A stretch of DNA of 64,000 nucleotides from Micromonospora coxensis. GTDB lineage: Bacteria; Actinomycetota; Actinomycetes; Mycobacteriales; Micromonosporaceae. Below, in pieces: positions 53,603 to 64,000 of the stretch. Position numbers and translations under genes: made by a program. The stretch covers positions 5,394,001 through 5,458,000 of the forward strand of contig NZ_LT607753.1 in assembly GCF_900090295.1 (NCBI RefSeq), given 5' to 3'. How positions within the stretch are numbered: the first letter of the stretch is position 1; each line of letters begins with the position of its first letter. The notes under the pieces were generated by a model. It did not search any database and was not told the origin of the DNA. It saw only the letters and a program-made list of their open reading frames with translations.

Positions 53603-54559
53603 CTACCGGCCGGTAACCAAGGGGGTGCGGCGGACCGTCGCGCCCTGTTCGACCCGGTCGACGGCGGCCAGCACCGCCGGCACGTCCAGCGCCGCCAGCG
53701 CCGGGTGCACCGCCTCGGCGTCGGCCGGGGCGCGCGGGCCGACCCAGAGCGCCTGGTGCCAGGGGCGGTCCGGCGGCGGACCCCACTGCGCGGGCGGAAC
53801 CGGCCCGAACAGCAGCACGGACGGGGTGGCGTACGCGGTGGCCAGGTGCCCGATGCCGGTGTCCCCACCGACCACCAGCCGGGCGTGGGCCACCAGCGCG
53901 GCCAGCTCCCCGAGGTCGGTCTCCCCGGCCAGCACCGCCCGGGCCGGCAGCCCGGCCAGGACGCGGACCTGCTCGGCGATGCTCCGCTCGCCGGGGCTGC
54001 CGGTCACCACCACCCGGTGACCCCGGGCGGTGAGCGCCCGGGCCACCCGGGCGAACCGGGCCGGTGGCCAGCGGCGTTGCGCCGCCTTGGCGCCCGGGTG
54101 CACGATGCTCACTCCGGTCGGCAGCCGCCCCGGCGCCGGCCGGCGCAGCGCCAGGTCGGTGCGGTCGGCGGGCACGCCGTACCAGGCCAGCAGCCGGCAC
54201 CAGCGGTCGATCTCGTGCTCCTCGGCGTACCACGCCGGACCGTCGTGGTGGCCGGCCTCGGCGTTGGCGAAGGCCAGCAGCCGGCGCGGACGGGCGCCGG
54301 CGAGCATCCGGTGCGACTGCGGGCCCCGCCCGTGCAGGTTCACCGCCAGCCGCGGCGGCGGGCCGGACCAGGCCAGTTCGCCGAGCCCGTCGGCCTCGAC
54401 CAGCCGGTCGACGCCGCCGATCAGGTCGACCAGCGGCGCCGTCCAGCGCGGCGCGACCAGCGCCAGCTCCTCGTCCGGGTACGCCGCGCGCAGCGCGCGC
54501 AGCGCGGGGACCCCGGTGGCGAGGTCCCCGACGCCCAGCGCCCGCAACACCAGGATCAC
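53603..54559 (-). CDS. Glycosyltransferase family 9 (heptosyltransferase-like)
   Basis: 318 residues from GTG 54559, overlapping the SDR stop (GTGA). LRALGVGDLATGVPALRALR is the GT9 start (GD in place of the N-terminal catalytic Asp region), SIVHPGAKAAQRRWPPARFARVA the middle substrate motif, and LVVGGDTGIGHLATAYATPSVLLFGP the nucleotide-sugar motif (D-T-G-x-x-H). Presumed to transfer heptose or a related sugar in the glycan operon. Last gene of the operon. Confidence 0.92.
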   Translation of the reverse strand: MILVLRALGVGDLATGVPALRALRAAYPDEELALVAPRWTAPLVDLIGGVDRLVEADGLGELAWSGPPPRLAVNLHGRGPQSHRMLAGARPRRLLAFANAEAGHHDGPAWYAEEHEIDRWCRLLAWYGVPADRTDLALRRPAPGRLPTGVSIVHPGAKAAQRRWPPARFARVARALTARGHRVVVTGSPGERSIAEQVRVLAGLPARAVLAGETDLGELAALVAHARLVVGGDTGIGHLATAYATPSVLLFGPVPPAQWGPPPDRPWHQALWVGPRAPADAEAVHPALAALDVPAVLAAVDRVEQGATVRRTPLVTGR

Positions 54560-55251
54560 GGGTACGACGACTCCTGCTCGGCGCAGACCACCAGCTCCCG
54601 TACCGCACAGCCGGGCGGCTGGGAGAGCGCGAACATGACCGCGGCGGCGGTGTCGGCCGGGTCGTTGAGGATCGCGTCCGGACCGGGCTTGTACTGCGCG
54701 TCGCGGTCGTCGAAGAACGCCGTGCGCATGCCGCCGGGGATCAGCAGGGTGACCCCCACCGTCCCGGCCAGCTCGGCGGCGAGCGCCCGGGTGAAGCCGA
54801 CCACCCCGAACTTCGCCGCGCAGTACGCGGTGGCGTCGCTGACCGCCTTGATCCCGAGCGTGGACGCGACCGTCACCACCGTGCCGTGCGAGCGCTCCAG
54901 GTGCGGCAGCGCGGCCCGCACCACCGCGGCGGTGCCGAGCAGGTTGACCGCCACGATCCGGTCCCAGGTGGCCCCGTCGACGTCGGCCAGCCGCCCCGGC
55001 ACGTCCATCCCGGCGGCGGTGACCAGGCCGGTCAGCCCGCCGGCCTGCTCGGCGACGCGCCGGGTGGCCTCCTCGGCGGCCCGGGTGTCGGCCAGGTCGC
55101 ACTCCACCCACTCCACCCCGTCGGCCGGCGCCTGCCGGTCCAGCACGTACGGCCGTCCACCGGCCTTGGTCACCGCGGTCACCACCGCCGCGCCGAGGCC
55201 GCTCGACCCGCCCGTGACGAGTACCGCCGAACCGTTCAGATCCCTGCTCAT
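54556..55251 (-). CDS. SDR-family oxidoreductase in heptose-glycan operon
   Basis: 231 residues from ATG 55251, overlapping the hldE stop by 4 nt. TGGSSGLGAAVVTAVTKAGG, VTVASTLGIKAVSDATAYCAAKFG (Ser and Y-x-A-A-K) and LIPGGMRTAFFDD. Acidic residue in YVLDRQ after beta-2 suggests NAD(H). Probably modifies a sugar or sugar nucleotide in the pathway; exact step unknown. Confidence 0.9.
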   Translation of the reverse strand: MSRDLNGSAVLVTGGSSGLGAAVVTAVTKAGGRPYVLDRQAPADGVEWVECDLADTRAAEEATRRVAEQAGGLTGLVTAAGMDVPGRLADVDGATWDRIVAVNLLGTAAVVRAALPHLERSHGTVVTVASTLGIKAVSDATAYCAAKFGVVGFTRALAAELAGTVGVTLLIPGGMRTAFFDDRDAQYKPGPDAILNDPADTAAAVMFALSQPPGCAVRELVVCAEQESSYP

Positions 55252-56672
55252 CGTGCTCCCTTGACCAGTCGGGCGCCGCGCGAGCGCGCGGCGGTGATCG
55301 TGGCGGTGGTGGAGCGGCCCGCCAGGTACGGCACCGTCACCACCCGGCCGCCCCAGCCGCGGACGAGGTCGGCCTCGGGCAGCTCCGGGGCGCCGTCGCC
55401 GGAGTAGTCGCCGCCCTTGACCCAGACGTCGGGGCGCAGCCGGGCCAGCGCGGTGGACGGCGTGGACTCGTCGAAGACCACCACCGCGTCCACGCAGTCC
55501 AGCGCCGCCAGCAGCCGGGCCCGGTCCGCCTCGCCGTTGACCGGGCGCTCCGGACCCTTGAGGGCGCGGACGCTGCGGTCGGAGTTGAGGCAGACCACCA
55601 GGCAGTCGCCGAGCCGGCGGGCGGCCTGCAGGGTGGCGACGTGCCCGGCGTGCAGGATGTCGAAGCAGCCGCCGGTGGCGACCACCGTGCCGCCGTCGGC
55701 GCGTACCCGGGACACCAGCTCCTCGACGGCGGAGGCCGGCGGGCGCGGTGCGGCCGACACGCGGTCGGCCCGGGCCAGTCCGGCGGCCCCACCGGCGGCG
55801 ACGTACGCCGACGCGGCGGCGACCGCCTCCCGCACCGCCTCGGAGGTGACCGCCCCGGCGGCGAGCGCGGTGGCGGCGGTGGCGGCGAAGCGGTCGCCGG
55901 CGCCGCAGGTGTCCTCGACGTGGTCCACGCCGGACGGTGGCGGCACCACCAGCGGGGTGCCGCCGGAGTGGCAGAGCACCGCGCCGTCCGGGCCCATGGT
56001 CACCGCGACCGCCCCGACCCGCCAGCGCTGCCGCAGCTCGTGCCCGGCGCGGGTGGCCGTGGACAGCGCCGTGCCGGCCCCGGCGTCGCCGGTGAGCCGG
56101 CGCAGCTCGCCGAGGTTCGGGGTGACCAGCCGGGCGCCGGGCACCGCCACCGGCCCGTTCGGGTGCGGGTCCCAGACCAGCGGGGCGCCCGCCCCGGCGA
56201 GCGCGGCGCGCAGCGCCGGCTGCCGGAGCAGCCCTCGGCCGTAGTCGCTGACCAGGATCGCGCCGGCGGCGGCGAGCACCTCCAGCGCCGCCTCCGGCGG
56301 CTCGCCGGCGGCCTGCGGGTCGCCGCCCCGGTCCAGCCGCAGCAGCGTCTGCCCGCCGGAGCGGAGCCGGATCTTCTCCGGCGTCGCCCCGGGCAGCCGC
56401 AGCGGGTAGAGGCGCACCCCGGCGGTGGTGAGCAGTTCGGCGATGCGGGCCCCGGCGGCGTCGTCGGCGAGCGCGGTGACCAGCGCCACCTCGACGCCCT
56501 GGGCGGCGGCGAGCAGCGCGGCCAGGCCGGCCCCGCCGGGCCGGTCGGTGGCCCCGCGCTCGTCGAGCACCGGCACCGGCGCGTCCGGGCAGACCCGGGA
56601 GACGGTGCCGTCGACGTCCCGGTCGAGCAGGGCGTCGCCGACGACGACCAGCGGCCCGCTCACGACGGACAC
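55248..56672 (-). CDS. hldE: Bifunctional heptose-7-phosphate kinase/heptose-1-phosphate nucleotidyltransferase (HldE-like)
   Basis: 474 residues, the usual length of HldE. N-terminal PfkB kinase (about 5-310): GDALLDRDVDG, SDYGRGLL, VTPNLGEL, and catalytic EDTCGAGDRFAATAATAL. C-terminal cytidylyltransferase-fold domain (about 335-465): GGCFDILHAGHVATLQ with the H-x-G-H motif, NSDRSVRALKGPERPVN, and VWVKGGDY. Together they phosphorylate D-glycero-D-manno-heptose 7-phosphate at C1 and, after GmhB removes the 7-phosphate, attach the nucleotide. Overlaps GmhA gene by 13 nt. A complete HldE in a Gram-positive is notable. Confidence 0.93.
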   Translation of the reverse strand: MSVVSGPLVVVGDALLDRDVDGTVSRVCPDAPVPVLDERGATDRPGGAGLAALLAAAQGVEVALVTALADDAAGARIAELLTTAGVRLYPLRLPGATPEKIRLRSGGQTLLRLDRGGDPQAAGEPPEAALEVLAAAGAILVSDYGRGLLRQPALRAALAGAGAPLVWDPHPNGPVAVPGARLVTPNLGELRRLTGDAGAGTALSTATRAGHELRQRWRVGAVAVTMGPDGAVLCHSGGTPLVVPPPSGVDHVEDTCGAGDRFAATAATALAAGAVTSEAVREAVAAASAYVAAGGAAGLARADRVSAAPRPPASAVEELVSRVRADGGTVVATGGCFDILHAGHVATLQAARRLGDCLVVCLNSDRSVRALKGPERPVNGEADRARLLAALDCVDAVVVFDESTPSTALARLRPDVWVKGGDYSGDGAPELPEADLVRGWGGRVVTVPYLAGRSTTATITAARSRGARLVKGAR

Positions 56673-57478
56673 CCCCGCCGGTCGGGGCGGTGCCCGTTCG
56701 TGTCGTGTCCGTTGACGCCGTGTCCGTTGCTGCCGTGCCCGTTCGCGCCGTGGCCGTTGAGGCCGTGGCCGTTCGCGCCGTGGCCGTTGAGCGGGTAGCC
56801 GTTGACCACGGCCAGCGCCCGGTCACCCCGGCCGGCCGGCAGCCGGCCGGCGACCGCGACGCCGCGCTGCCGCGGCACGGTCGTCGTCCGGGGGAGCCGG
56901 CGGACCAGCGGCAGCGCCTCGTCGACGTACTCGCAGAGCAGGTGCAGCGAGACCAGGTGCAGCTCCTGCACCACCTGGCTGTCCGGGGACGGGACGGCAA
57001 GCACCTCGTCACAGACCTCCGCGAGGGGGTTGGGGGCGGGGCCGGTGAACGCCCAGCAGCGCACCCCGGTCTCCCGGGCCGCCTCGACCGCCCGCAGCAG
57101 GTTGACGCTGCTGCCGCTGGTCGACAGCAGCAGCAGCACGTCGCCGTCCCGCCCGTGGGCGCGCACCTGCCGGGCGAAGACCTCGTCGTAGCCGTAGTCG
57201 TTGCCGATCGCGGTCATCGAGGAGGTCTCCGCGTGCAGGGCGATCGCCGAGTACGGCTCCCGGTCGTCGCGCAGCTTGCCGACCAGTTCGGCGGTGAGGT
57301 GCTGGGCCTCGGCGGCGCTGCCGCCGTTGCCGGCGGCCAGCAACCGGCCGCCACCCGCGAGGGTCCAGGCCAGCTCGGTGCCCCAGTCGGCGAGGCGTCC
57401 GGCGGCCTGCCGGTACGGCAGCAGCGCGGCGGCGAGCCCGGCCAGATGCGTGTCCAGGGTGGACAGCGGAGCGCTCAT
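56660..57478 (-). CDS. gmhA: Phosphoheptose isomerase (GmhA-like, SIS domain) with repeat tail
   Basis: 272 residues; the first about 195 form the SIS enzyme: LAAGNGGSAAEAQHLTAELVGKL, TAIGNDYGYDEVFARQV, LLLLSTSGSSVNLLRAVEAA and DSQVVQELHLVSLHLLCEYVD, closely following GmhA. It would convert sedoheptulose 7-phosphate to heptose 7-phosphate. A C-terminal extension follows with six or seven five-residue repeats of N-G-H-G-x (about 237-266), encoded by near-identical 15-bp units. Standard GmhA ends near 195. The His-rich tail could bind metal. ATG overlaps the upstream GT4 stop. Confidence 0.92.
   Translation of the reverse strand: MSAPLSTLDTHLAGLAAALLPYRQAAGRLADWGTELAWTLAGGGRLLAAGNGGSAAEAQHLTAELVGKLRDDREPYSAIALHAETSSMTAIGNDYGYDEVFARQVRAHGRDGDVLLLLSTSGSSVNLLRAVEAARETGVRCWAFTGPAPNPLAEVCDEVLAVPSPDSQVVQELHLVSLHLLCEYVDEALPLVRRLPRTTTVPRQRGVAVAGRLPAGRGDRALAVVNGYPLNGHGANGHGLNGHGANGHGSNGHGVNGHDTNGHRPDRRGCPS
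56705..56795 (-). repeat. 15-bp tandem repeats encoding NGHGx
   Basis: Six or more units of 15 bp encoding Asn-Gly-His-Gly/Asp plus a variable residue, at the 3' end of gmhA. Length variation by slippage is likely. Confidence 0.8.
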
Positions 57479-58695
57479 CAAGCCACCGCCGGGGCGACGC
57501 GGCCGACCTGGGCGACGCTGGCGTAGACCGCGCCGAGCTGCTGGGCGCACCGCTTCCAGGAGTACCGGCTGCGGATGCGGTCCAGCGCCGCCGTGGCGTA
57601 CGCGAAGCGGCGGACCTTGTCGGCGAACAGCCGGCGCAGCGCGGTGCCCAGCGCGCGGGGGTCGCGCGGCGGCACGAGGTCACCGGTGAGCCCGTCCACG
57701 ACGGTGTCGGCGATCCCGCCGACGTTCGTGCCGATCACCGGGACGCCGCAGGCCATGCCCTCCAGCGGGGTGAGCCCGAACGGCTCGTACCAGGGGGCGG
57801 CGACCAGCACGTCGGCCGAGCGGTACCAGGCGCCCATCTCCTCGCGCGGCACCGCGCCGACGAGCTTGACCCGGTCGGCGACGCCGCAGGACTCGGCGAG
57901 CGCGGTGAGCCGGCGGGCGAAGCCGTCGGCCGGCAGCAGCTCGGCGGGCGGCCCACCGACCACCACGCACTCGGCGTCCGGCACGGCGGGCAGCGCGCGG
58001 ATGACGTCCTGGAAGCCCTTGCGCTCGACCATCCGGCCGACGGTGAGGATCCGGTGCCGGGCCGGGTCGCGCGGGGCGACCGGCCCCTCCGGGCGGAACA
58101 TCTGCTCGTTGACCCCGGACGGGACCAGCGCCATCTTCGCGCGGGGCACGCCGAGCCGGACCAGCTCGCCGACCTCGTCCTGGCACTGCACGATCACCCG
58201 GTCGGCGGCGCGTCCCAGCGCCCGCTCGTAGCCGATCCGGCCCGGTGGGCTGGTGTCCTTCGTCCCCTGGTGCCGCCGCTTCACCGCGCCGAGCGCGTGG
58301 TACGTCAGCACCACCGGCGTGTTGGTGCGCCGACCCGCGTGCAGGGTGGCCAGGCCGCTCATCCAGAAGTGGGCGTGCGCCACGTCGGGACGCCAGCCCC
58401 CGTGCCGCCACTGGTCGGCCAACCAACGGCCGAACTCGCCCATGTACGGCAGCAGCTCGTCCTTCGGCACCCGCAGCGCCGGCCCGGCCGGCACGTGCAG
58501 CACCTGGTACCCGGCGGAGGCGTCCACCACATCGGGCAGCTCCGACGAGTCACGGCGGGTGTAGACCCGCACGTCGTGGCCTTCGCCGACCAACGCCGCC
58601 GCCAGTTCGGCGACGTGCGTGTTCTGACCACCGGCGTCCTCCTCGCCGAGGACGGCGAGCGGGCTGGCGTGCTCCGAGATCATCGCGATGCGCAT
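57478..58695 (-). CDS. Glycosyltransferase family 4
   Basis: 405 residues from ATG 58695 (GGAGGAGG upstream). MRIAMISEHASPLAVLGEEDAGGQNTHVAELAAAL is the start typical of GT4 enzymes related to sucrose-phosphate synthase and MshA (G-G-x-x-x-H). C-terminal GT-B domain: ILTVGRMVERKGFQDVIRAL, WYEPFGLTPLEGMACGVPVIGTNVGG (E-x-F-G-L-x-x-x-E). Member of the operon; acceptor unknown. Confidence 0.92.
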   Translation of the reverse strand: MRIAMISEHASPLAVLGEEDAGGQNTHVAELAAALVGEGHDVRVYTRRDSSELPDVVDASAGYQVLHVPAGPALRVPKDELLPYMGEFGRWLADQWRHGGWRPDVAHAHFWMSGLATLHAGRRTNTPVVLTYHALGAVKRRHQGTKDTSPPGRIGYERALGRAADRVIVQCQDEVGELVRLGVPRAKMALVPSGVNEQMFRPEGPVAPRDPARHRILTVGRMVERKGFQDVIRALPAVPDAECVVVGGPPAELLPADGFARRLTALAESCGVADRVKLVGAVPREEMGAWYRSADVLVAAPWYEPFGLTPLEGMACGVPVIGTNVGGIADTVVDGLTGDLVPPRDPRALGTALRRLFADKVRRFAYATAALDRIRSRYSWKRCAQQLGAVYASVAQVGRVAPAVA

Positions 58696-59654
58696 GTTTC
58701 CTCCTCCAAGATCCGGTCCCAGTCGGCGAGGAACCGGTCGAGCCCGAAGCGTTCTTTCGACACCTCCCGCGCCCGCGCACCGAGCCGGTACGCGGCGTCG
58801 CGGTCCTCCGCGAGCCACCGGGCCGCCTCGACGAGCGTGTCGACCCGGGTGGAGAGCACGCCGGCGTCGGGCGGCACCGCGTCGACGGCCTCGGTGGTGG
58901 CCAGCGCGACGACGGGCATGCCGATCGTCATCGCCTCGATCAGGCTCAGCCCGAGCGAGGTCCACCGGCACAGGTGCAGGTACGCCCGCCGCCGGGCCAT
59001 CTCGGTGTGCATGACGTCCTGCGGCAGGTCCTCGTGGGCGGTCAGCCGCTCCGACGGCAGGCCCAGGTGGTCGGCCAGCCCGGTCACCCCCATCCCGAAC
59101 ACGTCCAGCGGGGCGACGGCCGCGAAGCGGGGCATCAGGTCGGTGCCGGTGACCCGGGCCCGCCGTACCGGCTCGTTGGTCACCACGGCGAGCCGGTCCA
59201 GCTCGCCGGTCCACTCCACCCGGGGCGGCACGATGCCGTGCTCGACGACGGCGGTGCGGGTGCCGCCGTTGTCGTAGAACAGCTCGTTGAAGTGGGTGAC
59301 GTGGGTGAGCAGCAGGTCGTCACGGTCGGCCATCGGGTGGCGGGTGTTCGGCACGTCGCCCTTGGGGGTGTTGTGCTCGACGTAGACGGCCGGTACGTCC
59401 CGGCCGGGGCGGCGGCGCGACCAGCGCTCGGCCAGCTCCAGCTCCTCGGGACGTTGCAGCACGACCACGTCGACGTCCGCGTCGGCGAGCTGCTCGGGGG
59501 TCACCTCGACCACGGTCTCCGGCCATGGGTAGGTACGCGCCCGGCCCCGCCCGTACGGGCCGCGGTCGGGCGTGACGGGCACCAGGTAGCGGTGCCGTCC
59601 GTGCACGAAGGACGTGGTCCAGGAGCCGTGCACGTGCCAGAGCAGGACGTTCAT
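58680..59654 (-). CDS. Glycosyltransferase (GT4/GT-B type)
   Basis: 324 residues. WHVHGSWTTSFVHGRHRYLVP at the start, VVVLQRPEELELAERW, YVEHNTPKGDVPNTRHPMADRDDLLLTHVTHFN in the middle, and TSLGLSLIEAMTIGMPVVALATTEAVDAVP (E-A-M-x-x-G-x-P-V-V) in the nucleotide-binding half. Ends 16 nt inside the next gene. Similar enzymes occur next to GmhA/HldE genes in other actinomycetes, as far as I recall. Confidence 0.88.
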   Translation of the reverse strand: MNVLLWHVHGSWTTSFVHGRHRYLVPVTPDRGPYGRGRARTYPWPETVVEVTPEQLADADVDVVVLQRPEELELAERWSRRRPGRDVPAVYVEHNTPKGDVPNTRHPMADRDDLLLTHVTHFNELFYDNGGTRTAVVEHGIVPPRVEWTGELDRLAVVTNEPVRRARVTGTDLMPRFAAVAPLDVFGMGVTGLADHLGLPSERLTAHEDLPQDVMHTEMARRRAYLHLCRWTSLGLSLIEAMTIGMPVVALATTEAVDAVPPDAGVLSTRVDTLVEAARWLAEDRDAAYRLGARAREVSKERFGLDRFLADWDRILEEETCASR

Positions 59655-59663
59655 GACCCTCCT

Positions 59664-61268
59664 TCAGCTGTCGGATCTGGTGGTGAGCAGGCGCACCGCC
59701 GCGACGACCTCGGCCGGGTCGATCCCGGCGGTCAGGCAGGGGTGCTCGGGCACCGGGCAGCGGGTGGCGCGGCTGTCCCGGCAGGCGGCGGTGGCGTCGC
59801 CGAGGCGGACCAGCGGCACCCGGTAGGGCGCCCACTGGCCGAACGAAACGGTGGGCGCGAAGAGGCTGACGACCGGGGTGCCGACGGCGGCGGCGAGGTG
59901 GGCCGGTCCGGTGTTGCCGACCACCACGCACTGCGCCCCGGCGATGACTCCGGCCAGGCCCGCGAGGTCGGTGCGTCCGCCGAGGTCGGTGCCACCGGCT
60001 GCGGCGACCCGGGAGGTCAGCGCGGTCTCGACCGGCCCCCCGGTCACCACTACCCGATGGCCGGCCGCGGCAATCGCGGCGACGATCTCCGCGCACCGCC
60101 ACGGCGGGCAGGCCCGCGCCGGCACCGACGCGCCGGGGTGCACCACGACGTACGGCTCGGCGTCCGGGACGACGGCGGGGCGGGTGGCGCGCACCCGCAA
60201 CGTCGGCTCGTCCCCGGCGGGCAGGCCGAACCCGGCCGCGGCGGCCAGGGAGAGGGCCCGCTCCGGCTCGGGGACGCCGACCGGCACGCGGTGCCGGACG
60301 TCGAGCAGGGCGCCGGGGTAGTCGTCGCTGATCGCGCTGATCCGCGCCACGCCGGCCATCCGCAGCAGCAGCGCGAGGGGGAGGGCGGACTGGTGGAAGG
60401 AGGTGAAGACGACCGCCTCGTCGGCGCCGACGGCGGCGAGCCGGTCGGTGAGGCGGCGCATGTCGTCCGGGTCGACCGGGGCGGGCTCGCCGTCGATCCA
60501 CGGCAGCGGCCACTCGATCAGCTCGTCGACGCCGGGCAGCAGGCCGGCCGCGGCGCGTCCCCGGGGGCCGCAGAGCAGCACCACCCGGTCGGCGTTGGCC
60601 GCCACGGCCCGGATCGCCGGGCCGGTCACCAGCACGTCCCCGGCCGAGTCGCTGCGGACCACCAGCACGGTGCCGGCCCGCCTGGTCGCGGCCGGGCGGA
60701 CGGCCGCCTGCCGGCGCAGGATCTCGTCGACAGCGGTGGGCAGGTCACGGGCGACGTGCGGGGCGGCGGCGATCTCCTCGGGCCGGGTGACCGGGGTGGG
60801 CACCAGGAAGCCGGTGGCGCCGGCGGCCAGGGCGGCGGTCATGTCCCGGCCGATGTCGCCGACCATGACGCAGCGGGCGGGCCGGGTGCCGAGCGCGGCG
60901 GCGCCGGCGTGGACCATGCCGGGGGCCGGCTTGCGGCAGCCGCAGCCGTCGCCGTCGTCGTGCGGGCAGATCTGCCAGGTGTCGAAGGGACCGAGCAGCT
61001 CCTCGACCCGGGCGTGCACCGCCCGCATCGCCTCGGCGGTGAACAGCCCCTTCGCCAGCCCGGACTGGTTGGTCACCACGCCCAGGCGCAGCCCGGCCGC
61101 GCGCAGCCGGTCCAGCGCCTCCCGGGCGCCCGGCATCGGGCGCACCTTGTCCGGATCGCCGTTGTACGGCACGTCCTCGATCAGGGTGCCGTCGCGGTCC
61201 AGCAGCACGGCGTCGAAGAGGCCCCCGTTCATGGGCAAGCAGTTGCCCCGGGCAAGAGGAGTAAACAT
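59664..61268 (-). CDS. GmhB-like heptose bisphosphatase fused to glycosyltransferase family 9
   Basis: 534 residues from ATG 61268, which overlaps the GT2 stop (TGATG; a GTG 3 nt earlier is in frame). Residues about 18-180 are a HAD phosphatase: AVLLDRDGTLIEDVPY, VTNQSGLAKGLF, the zinc loop CPHDDGDGCGCRKPAPGM (C-x-H...C-x-C) and MVGDIGRDMTAA, matching GmhB. Residues about 200-530 are a GT9 domain: VVRSDSAGDVLVTGPAIRAV, YVVVHPGASVPARACPPWRCAEIV and VVVGNTGPAHLAAAVGTPVVSLF (G-N-T-G-x-x-H). GmhB and heptosyltransferase are normally separate proteins; fusion links bisphosphate removal to transfer. Confidence 0.93.
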   Translation of the reverse strand: MFTPLARGNCLPMNGGLFDAVLLDRDGTLIEDVPYNGDPDKVRPMPGAREALDRLRAAGLRLGVVTNQSGLAKGLFTAEAMRAVHARVEELLGPFDTWQICPHDDGDGCGCRKPAPGMVHAGAAALGTRPARCVMVGDIGRDMTAALAAGATGFLVPTPVTRPEEIAAAPHVARDLPTAVDEILRRQAAVRPAATRRAGTVLVVRSDSAGDVLVTGPAIRAVAANADRVVLLCGPRGRAAAGLLPGVDELIEWPLPWIDGEPAPVDPDDMRRLTDRLAAVGADEAVVFTSFHQSALPLALLLRMAGVARISAISDDYPGALLDVRHRVPVGVPEPERALSLAAAAGFGLPAGDEPTLRVRATRPAVVPDAEPYVVVHPGASVPARACPPWRCAEIVAAIAAAGHRVVVTGGPVETALTSRVAAAGGTDLGGRTDLAGLAGVIAGAQCVVVGNTGPAHLAAAVGTPVVSLFAPTVSFGQWAPYRVPLVRLGDATAACRDSRATRCPVPEHPCLTAGIDPAEVVAAVRLLTTRSDS

Positions 61269-62290
61269 CACCTCTGCGCCCCGGCGACGTCACCGTCCGT
61301 CGTGGAACTGCGGGTGCGCCACCAGCCGCGTACCCAGTGGGTGACCGCGACCGGGGGGATCAGCGCGCTGGTGGCCAGCATGGTGAGCACCTCGTCGCGG
61401 GTCCGGGGCCCGGGGGCGATGCGGGCCCGGGCGAACTCGGCGGTGCCCGCCGCCCAGCCCAGCGCGCCGGTCGCGGCGAGCGCGCCGAGCACCCGGCGCG
61501 ACGCCGCGTCGCGCGGCAGCCCGGCCCGCAGCGCGACGGCCGTCAGGGCGAGCGCGCCGGCGGTGGTGACCGCGACGTGCCGGGGGCGGCGGCCCGGTGG
61601 CAGCCGCAGCTCCTGCCGCCAGTTCGGGCCGTAGCGGCGGCGCAGCAGCGCGTCGTCGGCGTTGCCGCGCTGCACCAGCAGGCTGACCCAGCGGCCCTCG
61701 GGACGCACCGGGTGGGCGACCACGCGACGGCCGCGCACCAGCTCCCAGCCGGCGAGCCGGACCCGGTGGGCCAGTTCGGCGTCCTCCCGGTAGGCGCGGG
61801 GGAACCGCTCGTCGAAGCCGCCGACCTGCTCCAGCGCGGCCCGCCGGTAGGCCATGTCGGCGGTGATCCACTCACCCTCGGCCAGGCCGGCGGTGCTCCG
61901 CTCCCAGTCGGTCGGGCGGCGGTCGGCCGGCAGCGGCACCTCGACCACGCCCTGCACCCCGCCGACCCGGTCGCCGACCGTGAGGTCGTCGCGCAGCCGT
62001 CGGGCCCAGTCCGGCGCCGGCACCACGTCGTCGTCGAGGAAGACCACCCACGGCTGCCGGGCCGCCCGCCAGCCGACGTTGCGGGCCGCCGCCGGGCCCG
62101 CGCCGCGCCCGGTGAGCACCTTCGCGTACCCGGACGACGTCGCCGGCACGGCCGGCTCGCCGGTCGGGTCCCGGCGGTCGTCGACCAGCAGGATCTCCGC
62201 GTCGGGCAGCTCGGCGAGCTGCCGGGCGAGGGCGTCGAGCAGCACGGTGAGGCTGGGCCGGCCGACGGTCGGCACCACGATGCTGATCAC
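61268..62290 (-). CDS. Glycosyltransferase family 2 with C-terminal membrane segments
   Basis: 340 residues. GT-A motifs: MISIVVPTVGRPSLTVLLDAL, LLVDDRRD, WVVFLDDDVVPAPDW (D-D-D metal site), MAYRRAALEQVGGFDERFP and EDAELAHRVRLAG (E-D). The last 100 residues include two hydrophobic stretches (VAVTTAGALALTAVALRAGL, LATSALIPPVAVTHWV), so it is probably membrane bound. ATG region overlaps the carbamoyltransferase stop by 4 nt. Confidence 0.93.
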   Translation of the reverse strand: MISIVVPTVGRPSLTVLLDALARQLAELPDAEILLVDDRRDPTGEPAVPATSSGYAKVLTGRGAGPAAARNVGWRAARQPWVVFLDDDVVPAPDWARRLRDDLTVGDRVGGVQGVVEVPLPADRRPTDWERSTAGLAEGEWITADMAYRRAALEQVGGFDERFPRAYREDAELAHRVRLAGWELVRGRRVVAHPVRPEGRWVSLLVQRGNADDALLRRRYGPNWRQELRLPPGRRPRHVAVTTAGALALTAVALRAGLPRDAASRRVLGALAATGALGWAAGTAEFARARIAPGPRTRDEVLTMLATSALIPPVAVTHWVRGWWRTRSSTTDGDVAGAQR

Positions 62291-63939
62291 CGGTCACCGC
62301 CGAGCGCGTCGCGGCGCACCGCGAACGGGCCGAGGGCCAGCAGGTCCACCGGCGCCGAGCCGAACAGCTCCATCGCCTCGCGCGGGGTGTCCACCATCGG
62401 CCGGCCGGCGGTGTTCAGCGACGTGTTCACCACCACCGGCAGCCCGGTGAGCCGCTCGAACTCGGCCAGCATCTCGGCCACCAGCGGTTCGGTGTCGGTG
62501 TGCACCGTCTGCACCCGGGCGGTGCCGTCGACGTGGGTGACCGCGGGGATCCGCTCGCGCCACTGCGGCCGGACCCGGTGCACGAAGAGCATGTACCGGC
62601 TGGGGTACACGCCGTCGAAGATGTCGGCGAAGCGCTCGGCGCGCACCATCGGCGCGATCGGGCGGAACTGCTCGCGGCCCTTCACGTCGTTCATCCGGCG
62701 GGTGGTGTCCGGGTCGCCGGGGTGGGCCAGCAGCGAGCGGTGGCCCAGGGCGCGCGGGCCGTACTCGCTGCGGCCCTGGTACCAGGCGACGATGCCGTTG
62801 CCGGCGAGCACCCGGGCGGCCTCGGCGGCGATCGAGTCGGGCCGGGAGTACGGCAGCGCCGCGCGGCGCAGCTCCGCCTCCAACTCCTCGTCGGACCAGC
62901 CGCGCCCGAGGTCCGCCCCGGTCATCGGGGTGCTCCGGTCGCCCAGCTCGCCGGCCACGTGCAGGGCCGCGCCGAGCGCGGTGCCGGAGTCGCCGGCCGC
63001 CGGCTGCACCCAGACGTCGCGGTACGGCCCCTCGGCGGCGATCCGGGCGTTGGCCACGCAGTTCAGCGCCACCCCGCCGGCCATGGCCAGCGTCGAGGCC
63101 CCGCCGGAGGCGTCGTACAGCCAGCGGGACAGGTCGAGGACGACCTCCTCCAGCCGCTGCTGCACGCTGGCGGCCAGGTCGGCGTGCTCGTCGGTCGGCT
63201 CGCCACCCGCGCCGACCGCCTTGGCCATGCCGGCCCAGTCGATCCGGTCGACGTGGAAGCCGCCGTCGTCGGTGACCCGTACCAGCTCACGCAGCAGGCC
63301 GAGGTGCTTCGGCTCGCCGTACGAGGCCAGCGCCATCACCTTGTACTCGTCGCTGGAGTGCATGAACCCGAGGTGTCGGGTGAGGTCCTCGTAGAGCAGG
63401 CCGAGCGAGTGCGGCAACTGCTGCGAGAACAGCGGGGTGAGCGCGCCGTCGCGGTAGACACCGGCCAGGTGGCTGGCGACCTCGCCGCGGCCGTCGAGGA
63501 CCAGCACGGCGGTGTCGTCGCCGGCCGGCGGGGCGGCCAACCCGGCCGAGGCGGCATGCGCCACGTGGTGCGGGACGAAGCGCACCTTGTCCGGGTCCAG
63601 GCCGGGCAGCGCGGCGGCGAGGAACTGCGGGGCGCGGCGGGCGTAGTCGACGCGCAGCCAGTCCCAGGGATCGCTGAGTCCCAGGTCGGCGACGTCCCGG
63701 CAGAGACCCGGATCGAAGGAGTAGGCCACCGCGTCGAGGCTGTCGACGTCGATGCCGGCGCTGCTCAGGCACCAGGCGGCGGAGAGTTCGGGCAGCTCCC
63801 AGGCGGAGAACGGGACGGGCCGCTTGCCGTGTTTCCGACGGCTGAACCGTTCCTCCTCGGCGGCGGCCACCACCTGTCCGTCGACCACCAGGGCGGCGGC
63901 CGGGTCGTGGAAGATGGCATTGATTCCGAGGACGCGCAT
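62287..63939 (-). CDS. NodU/CmcH-type O-carbamoyltransferase
   Basis: 550 residues. MRVLGINAIFHDPAAALVVDGQVVAAAEEERFSRRKHGKRPVPF is the family opening. N-terminal Kae1-like domain with VPHHVAHAASAG (metal His pair H-H-V-A-H), VLDGRGE and MAGGVALNCVANARI; C-terminal domain with WYQGRSEYGPRALGHRSLLA and REQFRPIAPMV. It transfers a carbamoyl group from carbamoyl phosphate through carbamoyl-AMP to a hydroxyl on a sugar or antibiotic. First gene of the heptose operon, so the product is expected to carry a carbamoylated sugar. Confidence 0.94.
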   Translation of the reverse strand: MRVLGINAIFHDPAAALVVDGQVVAAAEEERFSRRKHGKRPVPFSAWELPELSAAWCLSSAGIDVDSLDAVAYSFDPGLCRDVADLGLSDPWDWLRVDYARRAPQFLAAALPGLDPDKVRFVPHHVAHAASAGLAAPPAGDDTAVLVLDGRGEVASHLAGVYRDGALTPLFSQQLPHSLGLLYEDLTRHLGFMHSSDEYKVMALASYGEPKHLGLLRELVRVTDDGGFHVDRIDWAGMAKAVGAGGEPTDEHADLAASVQQRLEEVVLDLSRWLYDASGGASTLAMAGGVALNCVANARIAAEGPYRDVWVQPAAGDSGTALGAALHVAGELGDRSTPMTGADLGRGWSDEELEAELRRAALPYSRPDSIAAEAARVLAGNGIVAWYQGRSEYGPRALGHRSLLAHPGDPDTTRRMNDVKGREQFRPIAPMVRAERFADIFDGVYPSRYMLFVHRVRPQWRERIPAVTHVDGTARVQTVHTDTEPLVAEMLAEFERLTGLPVVVNTSLNTAGRPMVDTPREAMELFGSAPVDLLALGPFAVRRDALGGDR

Positions 63940-64000
63940 GAGTCGTCCCTACCCTGGCCCTCTCCTCCTAACCTGTAGATCATCGACTTCTCGACGGGGC

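Follow-up and report, generated by a model that had tools for sequence, protein, structure and literature searches.

A Micromonospora coxensis operon, probably for heptose glycan assembly, that is colinear with the cwg operon of Streptomyces coelicolor

Results

Gene layout and bounds of the operon

In the window, i.e. the entire 64,000-nucleotide stretch of Micromonospora coxensis DNA analysed here, nine genes on the minus strand span positions 53603-63939. The preliminary description of this DNA had named them as almost fully overlapping, and its coordinates turned out to be exact: seven of the eight junctions overlap by 1 to 16 bases and the remaining one is a gap of 9 bases. The features of the operon and its immediate surroundings are listed below, cwg designations referring to predicted orthologues in Streptomyces coelicolor.

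63968..63992, minus strand: 25-base element upstream of the carbamoyltransferase gene, a possible promoter or regulator site, conserved in the upstream alignment
62287..63939, minus strand: carbamoyltransferase (CT) of NodU/TobZ type, 550 aa, cwgB orthologue; Pfam Carbam_trans_N and Carbam_trans_C
61268..62290, minus strand: family 2 glycosyltransferase (GT2), 340 aa, cwgC orthologue; Pfam Glycos_transf_2, 59.9 bits
59664..61271, minus strand: GmhB-type phosphatase fused to a GT9 heptosyltransferase-type domain, 535 aa, cwgD plus cwgE; NCBIfam GmhB, Pfam GT9
58680..59654, minus strand: GT-B/GT4-like glycosyltransferase (GTB), 324 aa, cwgF orthologue; Pfam Glycos_transf_1, 33.1 bits
57478..58695, minus strand: GT4 glycosyltransferase, MshA-like, 405 aa, cwgG orthologue; NCBIfam MshA
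56660..57478, minus strand: GmhA-type sedoheptulose-7-phosphate isomerase, 272 aa, cwgH orthologue; TIGR00441, aligned with solved GmhA proteins
55248..56672, minus strand: two-domain HldE (kinase and nucleotidyltransferase), 474 aa, cwgI orthologue; TIGR02199, TIGR02198
54556..55251, minus strand: classical SDR oxidoreductase, 231 aa; Pfam adh_short, 128.7 bits
53603..54559, minus strand: GT9 heptosyltransferase-type enzyme, 318 aa, cwgJ orthologue; Pfam GT9, 96.4 bits
52718..53581, minus strand: alpha/beta hydrolase, 287 aa, probable last gene of this copy; Pfam Hydrolase_4, 21 bases downstream of the GT9 gene

Matches to Pfam and NCBIfam models bear out the previously proposed set of GmhA, HldE and GmhB, five glycosyltransferase domains and a NodU-type carbamoyltransferase. 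Since the Pfam scores exceed the curated cut-offs (215.8 and 188.6 bits for the two CT domains, 81.2 and 96.4 bits for the GT9 domains of the fusion protein and the separate enzyme, 71.1 bits for SIS_2, 94.7 bits for PfkB and 62.0 bits for CTP_transf_like), this gene-family content is far beyond chance. The equivalog cut-offs of NCBIfam are mostly unmet, as for GmhB (118.9 bits against a whole-protein cut-off of 178), MshA (226.8 against 462.5), TIGR00441 with GmhA (161.3 against 209.45) and TIGR02198 with HldE (139.7 against 345). The only pathway model to reach its cut-off is rfaE_dom_II (TIGR02199), which HldE narrowly exceeds (182.2 against 181.5 bits). The carbamoyltransferase carries both Pfam domains of its family and its relatives by sequence in the PDB are 7xb6, novobiocin carbamoyltransferase, TobZ and GdmN, the HHxAH and D-G motifs aligning in 7xb6. 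In NodU/TobZ carbamoyltransferases the HHxAH motif has a role in metal binding. GmhA ends in a C-terminal tail rich in Asn, Gly and His, and the AlphaFold2 model of GTB reaches a mean pLDDT of 82.6. The SDR gene, which the preliminary description had left unnamed, has counterparts with 60-93% identity in most of the non-Streptomyces loci among the 80 loci compared in this study.

Among the 80 loci, only L063-L066, L072 and L068, which is truncated, have the alpha/beta hydrolase after the GT9 gene; it is present, too, in L043, L045 and L047. The suggestion that the operon may run on to the right did not hold once the sequence beyond 64 kb was inspected: a flavohaemoglobin-like gene on the same strand (64042-65295 in window numbering, identified by inspecting its sequence) is separated from the operon by a hairpin of 17 pairs (-34.5 kcal/mol, z -3.95), and the two together rule out such a continuation. 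When six upstream regions are aligned, the 25-base element stands out amid diverged flanks, slightly altered in L064 and L072. As it is present in a single copy in the genome, even at three mismatches, a genome-wide regulon was rejected.

The Pfam scan recognised no transport, polymerase, ligase or phosphoglycosyl-transferase gene in the operon. Hydropathy above 1.6 over 19-residue stretches is reached by just GmhB-GT9, GTB, HldE and SDR, whose hydrophobic stretches look like the cores of soluble folds; GT2 contains no such stretch.

Orthology to the Streptomyces cwg operon

As judged from gene order and sequence, the nine-gene operon is orthologous to and colinear with the cwg operon (SCO6179-6190) of Streptomyces coelicolor. 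As the reference we used L162, the locus with the exact published cwg promoter, which matches in only one of 392 Streptomyces genomes; we take its genome to be that of S. coelicolor or of a near twin. Between the end of the promoter and the first gene lie 147 bases, in agreement with the published distance, and twelve genes follow in a single direction: UXS-CT-GT2-GmhB-GT9-GTB-GT4-GmhA-HldE-GT9-GT2-GT2. The published annotations of cwgB to cwgJ (without cwgF), as far as the available portions of the literature give them, fit this order, cwgH being annotated as a putative phosphoheptose isomerase and cwgE as a putative heptosyltransferase. Another of the three promoter-bearing loci examined, L164, contains behind the promoter just GT2, part of GmhB and GT4.

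Nine counterparts in the order CT-GT2-GmhB-GT9-GTB-GT4-GmhA-HldE-GT9 are shared by L162 and the window at 53-70% identity (CT 70%, GT2 53%, GmhB 58%, the adjoining GT9 59%, GTB 61%, GT4 53%, GmhA 65%, HldE 53% and the distal GT9 55%). The two loci differ at their ends, since the window copy lacks the UDP-xylose-synthase-like cwgA (UXS) at its head and the two GT2 genes cwgK/L at its tail. Furthermore, GmhB and GT9, which in the Streptomyces locus are encoded about 340 bases apart, are fused in the window, and the SDR, for which L162 holds no match, is added between HldE and GT9, where the S. coelicolor-type locus has no counterpart. A UXS relative is present elsewhere in the M. coxensis genome, and no UXS occurs in any Micromonosporaceae locus among the 80 compared. 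Hence, we treat cwgA and cwgK/L as variable rather than defining genes.

According to the accessible parts of the published work, the cwg operon of S. coelicolor is induced by vancomycin and depends in part on sigma-E. Within 300 bases upstream of the window operon no sigma-E-type promoter was found: the best site scores 4.4 bits, below the median of random stretches (5.8 bits, 95% point 10.9 bits), and a sigma-E promoter for this copy was rejected. Scores above 10.9 bits, with gene starts estimated, are rare among its relatives: none of five other Micromonospora copies with CT, one of 37 copies without CT, three of 19 other Micromonosporaceae and one of ten scans of five Streptomyces loci. 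In view of these few cases we regard the sigma-E site as a regulatory trait of S. coelicolor, not as a general one.

Distribution and copies in the genome

A second cwg operon resides 185 kb away in the same genome (5639012-5646784), beside a topoisomerase-IB-like gene. It comprises GmhB-GT9, GTB, GT4, GmhA, HldE, SDR and GT9 in the same order as the window copy, at 67-82% identity, and lacks the carbamoyltransferase and GT2; this is the version present in most Micromonospora loci among the 80. In addition, the genome contains a third HldE-like gene, at 4007712-4009976. Thus, the deletion of a single hldE gene would be confounded and its outcome would mislead.

Of 36 other genomes in the genus, 35 contain a match to the GmhB-GT9 protein at E <= 1e-40, in keeping with a core function. 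Across the phylum the distribution of the GTB gene, which served as marker of the operon in genome scans, is patchy (23 of 198 genomes; none of the seven listed genomes of the genus taken as Streptomyces), and at least 577 relatives of the marker were confirmed in one scan of species genomes. Gene order is conserved in several families among the 80 loci; the Streptomyces loci L119, L121, L132 and L133 are colinear, L137 shows another order, and L131 and L135 are truncated. The initial impression that heptose genes are unexpected in a Gram-positive organism does not survive these observations: the operon is real yet not a new kind of system, similar operons being found in many actinomycetes, cwg of S. 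coelicolor among them. Our literature search on Micromonospora heptose, actinomycete heptose glycopolymers and carbamoyl-heptose gave nothing on the operon among the matches listed, and the main text of an Actinoplanes exopolysaccharide paper (PMC13390465), in its accessible part, contains neither "heptose" nor "carbamoyl".

Heptose pathway enzymes and the altered HldE

All three enzyme families of NDP-heptose formation, GmhA, HldE and GmhB, are present in the operon, and no HldD epimerase reaches the cut-off in the genome (best match 115.2 against 274.6 bits). The route to NDP-D-glycero-D-manno-heptose had been called complete; the enzyme families are in place and HldD finds no match above its cut-off, but the HldE kinase domain departs from E. 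coli HldE. At the positions of E. coli N55, K154 and K179 the window enzyme contains Leu, Arg and His, such that these canonical kinase residues find no match, and the heptose may accordingly not be the canonical one. In an alignment of 83 rows representing 81 genes, the equivalents of N55, K179 and N346 are replaced in all 81 cwg HldE genes (N55 by Leu or Met, K179 by His, N346 by Gly) while catalytic residues are retained. The altered positions stay conserved among the canonical enzymes compared. The S. coelicolor-type cwg HldE shares the changes GGA-xL, WDPHP and GGCFD with the window HldE; in contrast to the latter, the HldE of the Streptomyces cwg locus lacks the xxxGxST motif. An arginine linked to CTP/UTP use is present in 70 of the 81 genes. 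These residue replacements in cwg-type HldE are a new observation.

Discussion

Starting from the observed gene content and order, orthology to cwg and conserved motifs, we infer the reactions, the carbamoylation target and the surface location that follow. GmhA would convert sedoheptulose 7-phosphate to a heptose 7-phosphate, from which the kinase domain of HldE together with the GmhB domain would generate heptose 1-phosphate; the HldE nucleotidyltransferase domain would then form an NDP-heptose, probably not just with ATP. The two GT9 domains may transfer heptose, and the GT4, GT-B and GT2 enzymes may add further sugars, possibly including xylose in relatives with the UDP-xylose-synthase-like gene. 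The SDR might adjust a sugar or precursor, and the carbamoyltransferase might cap a hydroxyl group. As initially proposed, the set of GmhA, HldE and GmhB together with heptosyltransferase-type GT9s and a carbamoyltransferase most likely feeds a non-LPS glycan. The cwg operon very probably directs the synthesis of a sugar chain that contains heptose and is decorated with carbamoyl, and the nine genes represent a cwg operon whose product is most likely a cell-envelope glycan exported by genes elsewhere.

A different reading concerns the location of this product: the operon would yield a heptose oligosaccharide that stays dissolved in the cytosol, as a sugar for storage, stress or carrier purposes. 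In line with this, the operon has no recognisable exporter, flippase, ligase or enzyme for priming a lipid carrier. Most of the 59 related loci checked share no family of exporters, either within the locus or next to it, and no clear membrane protein is found among the operon proteins or the twelve proteins of the Streptomyces cwg locus. Moreover, GT4 is closest to MshA, an enzyme which glycosylates a soluble acceptor. Small flippases may, however, have escaped the scan, and the genes that export wall polymers can be found at other places in a genome. As the S. coelicolor operon, according to the available excerpts of the literature, responds to a cell-wall antibiotic and an envelope-stress sigma factor, we consider a soluble oligosaccharide improbable. 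A biosynthetic cluster whose product is a diffusible secondary metabolite with heptose, of the septacidin or hygromycin kind, is far less probable still. Actinomycete natural products with heptose from sedoheptulose 7-phosphate are known, as the literature available in part attests, and PDB entry names place carbamoyltransferases of the same family in antibiotic pathways; yet none of the ten operon proteins is a scaffold, resistance or efflux protein, and GmhB-GT9 throughout most of the genus and an order kept in several families look like core physiology. Operon content, genus-wide GmhB-GT9 and the neighbourhoods of the 59 loci led us to reject a septacidin-type cluster as the main reading. 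Glycosylation of protein or flagellin with heptose is very unlikely as well: protein heptosylation is known in bacteria and a pair resembling PseB/PseC, as identified by inspection, is encoded about 15 kb further right, but gyrase/topoisomerase-type and other genes separate it from the operon, and no oligosaccharyltransferase or flagellar gene is among the ten.

Returning to the envelope glycan, one might go further and regard cwg-type HldE as a separate lineage (N55 to Leu/Met, two Lys to Arg/His, N346 to Gly, usually with the promiscuity Arg), the operon building a widespread actinobacterial glycan from a CDP-, UDP- or ADP-heptose other than the canonical D-glycero-D-manno form, carbamoylated in full versions and assembled in the cytosol by way of no dedicated lipid carrier or exporter. 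In this extended form the proposal is speculative and rather doubtful.

The gene set ties many actinomycetes to heptose chemistry that is commonly linked with LPS, as well as to an envelope-stress operon whose product is, in the literature accessible in part, still called just a predicted or putative cell wall glycan. The enzymes, paralogues and altered HldE residues described here narrow the question of the cwg glycan to a few tests. As NDP-heptoses are immune agonists, it is useful to know which actinomycetes can make them.

Two further known systems bear comparison. In NDP-heptose synthetases the STTR5 motif xxxGxSTT (Tang et al. 2024, reported in PMC11461863 and PMC11573728, as far as their accessible parts show) has Arg at position 5, in common with the motif YLAGRSTT of the putative window enzyme, and Phe or Leu at position 1, where the window has Tyr. 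The wapO gene (PA5005) of the Pseudomonas LPS core, in the available portion of PMC8005017, is described as a putative carbamoyltransferase gene, with carbamoyl on HepII. By description, both systems place a putative carbamoyltransferase beside heptosyltransferases, one in Gram-negative LPS and the other in an actinomycete operon, and capping by the window enzyme might resemble the action proposed for WapO on LPS heptose.

Layout and borders of the operon

The window covers positions 5394001-5458000 of a one-contig genome of 6.77 Mb. Judged by the GTB protein, the nearest named relatives belong to Micromonospora, with 98% to M. coxensis. The preliminary description had placed nine genes at 53603-63939, and these coordinates proved exact. 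Adjoining genes overlap at seven of the eight junctions, the remaining one being a gap of 9 bases.

Features of the operon and its right border (window numbering)
53603-63939, minus strand: NodU/TobZ-type carbamoyltransferase (CT), GT2, GmhB-GT9 fusion, GT-B/GT4-like glycosyltransferase (GTB), MshA-like GT4, GmhA, HldE, SDR, second GT9
63968-63992, upstream of CT: conserved 25-base element, GAGAAGTCGATGATCT, three bases, then GGTTAG
64042-65295, same strand as the operon: flavohaemoglobin-like gene, the first gene rightward (named by sequence inspection)

The proposed continuation of the operon to the right was not borne out, since the flavohaemoglobin-like gene comes next and a hairpin of 17 pairs (-34.5 kcal/mol, z -3.95, none of 200 shuffles equally good) lies between it and the CT gene, which is thus the most likely start of the operon. 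Farther on come an Rrf2-type regulator gene in divergent orientation, a GDSL-type hydrolase gene and genes of the gyrase/topoisomerase type, all named by sequence inspection. Some 15 kb to the right of the operon, at genome positions 5473045-5475230 (L010), inspection reveals a PseB/PseC-like pair of the nonulosonic acid type. At the opposite end an alpha/beta hydrolase gene follows 21 bases after the last GT9; among 80 GTB loci it recurs only in the CT-type Micromonospora copies L063-L066 and L072 and in the truncated L068.

No sigma-E-type site above background is observed upstream of the window CT, nor is such a site general among its relatives. Although its flanks have diverged, the 25-base element is shared by six upstream regions, L064 and L072 showing slight changes; the window genome contains it once. 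Its exact pattern occurs in seven of 195 fetched loci, all of them CT-type Micromonospora copies, with L151 repeating the window's own.

Orthology with the cwg operon of Streptomyces coelicolor

Searching one genome per species with a GTB profile gave at least 577 confirmed relatives, and around GTB in the best 80 of these, several of which are short contigs, the operon genes were found again, CT being present in 34 of the 80 by manual count. Four Streptomyces loci (L119, L121, L132, L133) share the order UXS-CT-GT2-GmhB-GT9-GTB-GT4-GmhA-HldE-GT9, UXS denoting a UDP-xylose-synthase-like gene, and it was this order that suggested cwg of S. coelicolor. Among the other Streptomyces loci L137 differs in order and L131 and L135 are truncated; in the Streptosporangiaceae-type loci L134, L136, L138 and L139, GmhB and GTB run divergently to the remaining genes.

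Excerpts of five papers, whose accounts refer back to Hong, Paget and Buttner 2002, describe cwg as 12 genes (SCO6179-6190) with a predicted role in cell wall glycan synthesis, vancomycin-induced and in part sigma-E-dependent, with putative functions given for cwgH (phosphoheptose isomerase) and cwgE (heptosyltransferase) (PMC5839063, PMC5882110, PMC6767563, PMC13011467, PMC3902916). As a test of orthology, the published 29-base cwg promoter was sought in 392 genomes of the genus, which turned up a single exact match, plus five matches that differ at one or two bases. At the exact match (L162) 12 co-directional genes follow in the order UXS-CT-GT2-GmhB-GT9-GTB-GT4-GmhA-HldE-GT9-GT2-GT2, and the 147 bases from promoter to first gene equal the value given in PMC6767563. 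From the exact promoter and this distance we infer S. coelicolor, or a strain almost identical to it, as the host of L162. The promoter-bearing L163 harbours the same 12 genes.

Identity of window proteins with those of L162 (percent)
CT 70, GT2 53, GmhB 58, GT9a (first GT9 domain) 59, GTB 61
GT4 53, GmhA 65, HldE 53, GT9b (second GT9 domain) 55

The best explanation, and in our judgement a likely one, is that the window operon is a cwg operon, a probable cell-envelope glycan locus. Our confidence is slightly lowered by two observations. The distribution of the operon is patchy, GTB being detected in 23 of 198 genomes sampled across the phylum and not in any of the seven listed there for the genus taken to be Streptomyces. 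Furthermore, at L164 (genome G384) the promoter, with one mismatch, is followed only by GT2, part of GmhB and GT4, which has the appearance of a reduced or decayed cwg operon. The initial recognition of a heptose operon was correct overall, while the surprise attached to it is lessened by the operon being of a known type.

Heptose pathway and residues of HldE

Alignment to solved structures pairs GmhA with GmhA, GmhB with GmhB, HldE with HldA and HldC types, and CT with TobZ, GdmN and others. The best match in the search for HldD scored 115.2 bits and did not reach the cut-off of 274.6; a canonical pathway would therefore be expected to give a D,D-type heptose.

HldE was aligned with that of E. 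coli K-12 in 83 rows from 91 loci, each row exceeding 430 aligned residues and nine loci being excluded; these rows represent 81 genes, as two of them hold the window gene and L044 and L098 denote a single place. In all 81, Asn55 is replaced by Leu, Lys179 by His and Asn346 by Gly, while the catalytic Asp264, the HxGH histidines and Lys431 are retained. Position 154, Lys in E. coli, holds Arg in 76, Leu in four and Asn in one. Asn55 we take to be the counterpart of the sugar-binding Asn of ribokinase. Position 5 of the xxxGxSTT motif, at which arginine is linked to CTP/UTP use, is Arg in 70 genes, His in seven, Gln in two and Tyr in two. In L162, the Streptomyces cwg locus, HldE carries the GGA-L, WDPHP and GGCFD changes; the xxxGxST motif is absent from it.

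Within the phylum sample HldE is found in 27 of the 198 genomes, including all 23 with GTB. Thirty loci were listed, two from the window genome and two being pieces of one G143 gene. Leu or Met occupies the Asn55 position in 22, with His at 179 and Gly at 346 wherever readable; six hold Asn at both 55 and 346, with Lys (five) or His (one) at 179; two are unreadable at 55. As three of these six also possess the motif arginine, the latter is not specific to cwg. Canonical HldE lies 2.1 kb from a GTB relative in G188 and 4.2 kb in G247, and in G068 (C15:138312-145046; L193, L178) canonical and cwg-type HldE are 4.0 kb apart. To judge from these sequences, the residue pattern is a mark of the main cwg lineage and not of every GTB-linked cluster. 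The G068 pair might reflect parallel synthesis of two distinct heptoses.

Paralogous copies in genome and genus

Heptose loci elsewhere in the window genome (genome positions)
5639012-5646784 (L011, L012): second cwg operon, GmhB-GT9-GTB-GT4-GmhA-HldE-SDR-GT9, without CT and GT2
4007712-4009976 (L195:9713-11977): third heptose locus, HldE-like protein of about 755 residues

The second operon adjoins a topoisomerase-IB-like gene. Its GmhA has a different end from that of the window, where Asn-Gly-His units repeat along the C-terminal tail encoded by 56660-56800. The GmhB-GT9 protein is matched at E <= 1e-40 in 35 of the 36 other genomes of the genus (exception G023); two full-length copies are present in five of the 37, the window genome included, and a second piece lies on another contig in two more.

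A tree was built on four concatenated proteins, with 90 of the 91 loci represented (all but L103; L044 and L098 denote a single place). In it the window copy clusters with six other Micromonospora loci, CT-type or truncated (clade support 1.0), and the common CT-less copies form, with the own second copy, a separate clade. In Micromonospora mirobrigensis (L072, L098) the CT copy, L072, is the neighbour of that genome's CT-less copy in the tree, which suggests that gene conversion may have occurred between the two operons. CT, GT2 and topoisomerase IB stand together in one locus in Phytohabitans (L104, L110). The simplest reading would be an old duplication after which the topoisomerase-linked copy lost CT and GT2.

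In the third-locus protein, which GT2 and GT9 genes adjoin, the kinase match is split by about 150 residues and a nucleotidyltransferase domain is present; it is possibly a tridomain synthetase. The useful new facts are these three heptose loci in one genome and the HldE residue pattern, the latter not claimed to be absent from print.

Export, location and composition of the product

Multi-helix proteins were sought within 4 kb of the operon by simple gene calls (at least 90 residues) and simple hydropathy in 59 of the 80 loci, each extending at least 1.5 kb past both ends of the operon. Within the 59 operons a single call has three hydrophobic stretches; it is an extended GmhB-GT9 frame in L070 and was considered an artefact. 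Next to the operons, 47 multi-helix genes occur in 35 loci, with families recurring in 11, 8 and 6; a four-member family is again the extended GmhB-GT9 frame. Two of the three recurrent families resemble drug-type MFS and ABC-2 proteins and one an MFS protein. This MFS family lies on either strand within 4 kb of the operon in L117, L122, L124, L125, L132 and L133 (Actinoplanes group and Streptomyces); as an exporter it is a weak lead. Hydropathy exceeds 1.6 only in GmhB-GT9, GTB, HldE and SDR of the window operon and only in GmhB, GT9a, GTB and GT9b of L162, there with two stretches each at most. Neither the window operon nor L162 nor the 59 loci with their 4-kb flanks showed a recognisable exporter, ligase or priming enzyme dedicated to the pathway, in a scan that small flippases could escape. 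By analogy with the regulation in S. coelicolor, a product located in the cell wall is plausible.

Loci outside Micromonosporaceae often contain an added UXS-type epimerase gene, and a UDP-glucose-dehydrogenase-like gene is added in two of them (L057, L061), both genes being named by sequence inspection; a UXS relative, 57% identical, lies at 3423544-3424482 of the window genome. It is therefore likely that xylose is among the additional sugars in the UXS-bearing species outside Micromonosporaceae, and possible that it is in the window species. For a carbamoyl group on heptose there is a precedent in Pseudomonas LPS, the heptose of which is carbamoylated, a modification ascribed in the excerpted text of PMC8005017 to the putative carbamoyltransferase WapO.
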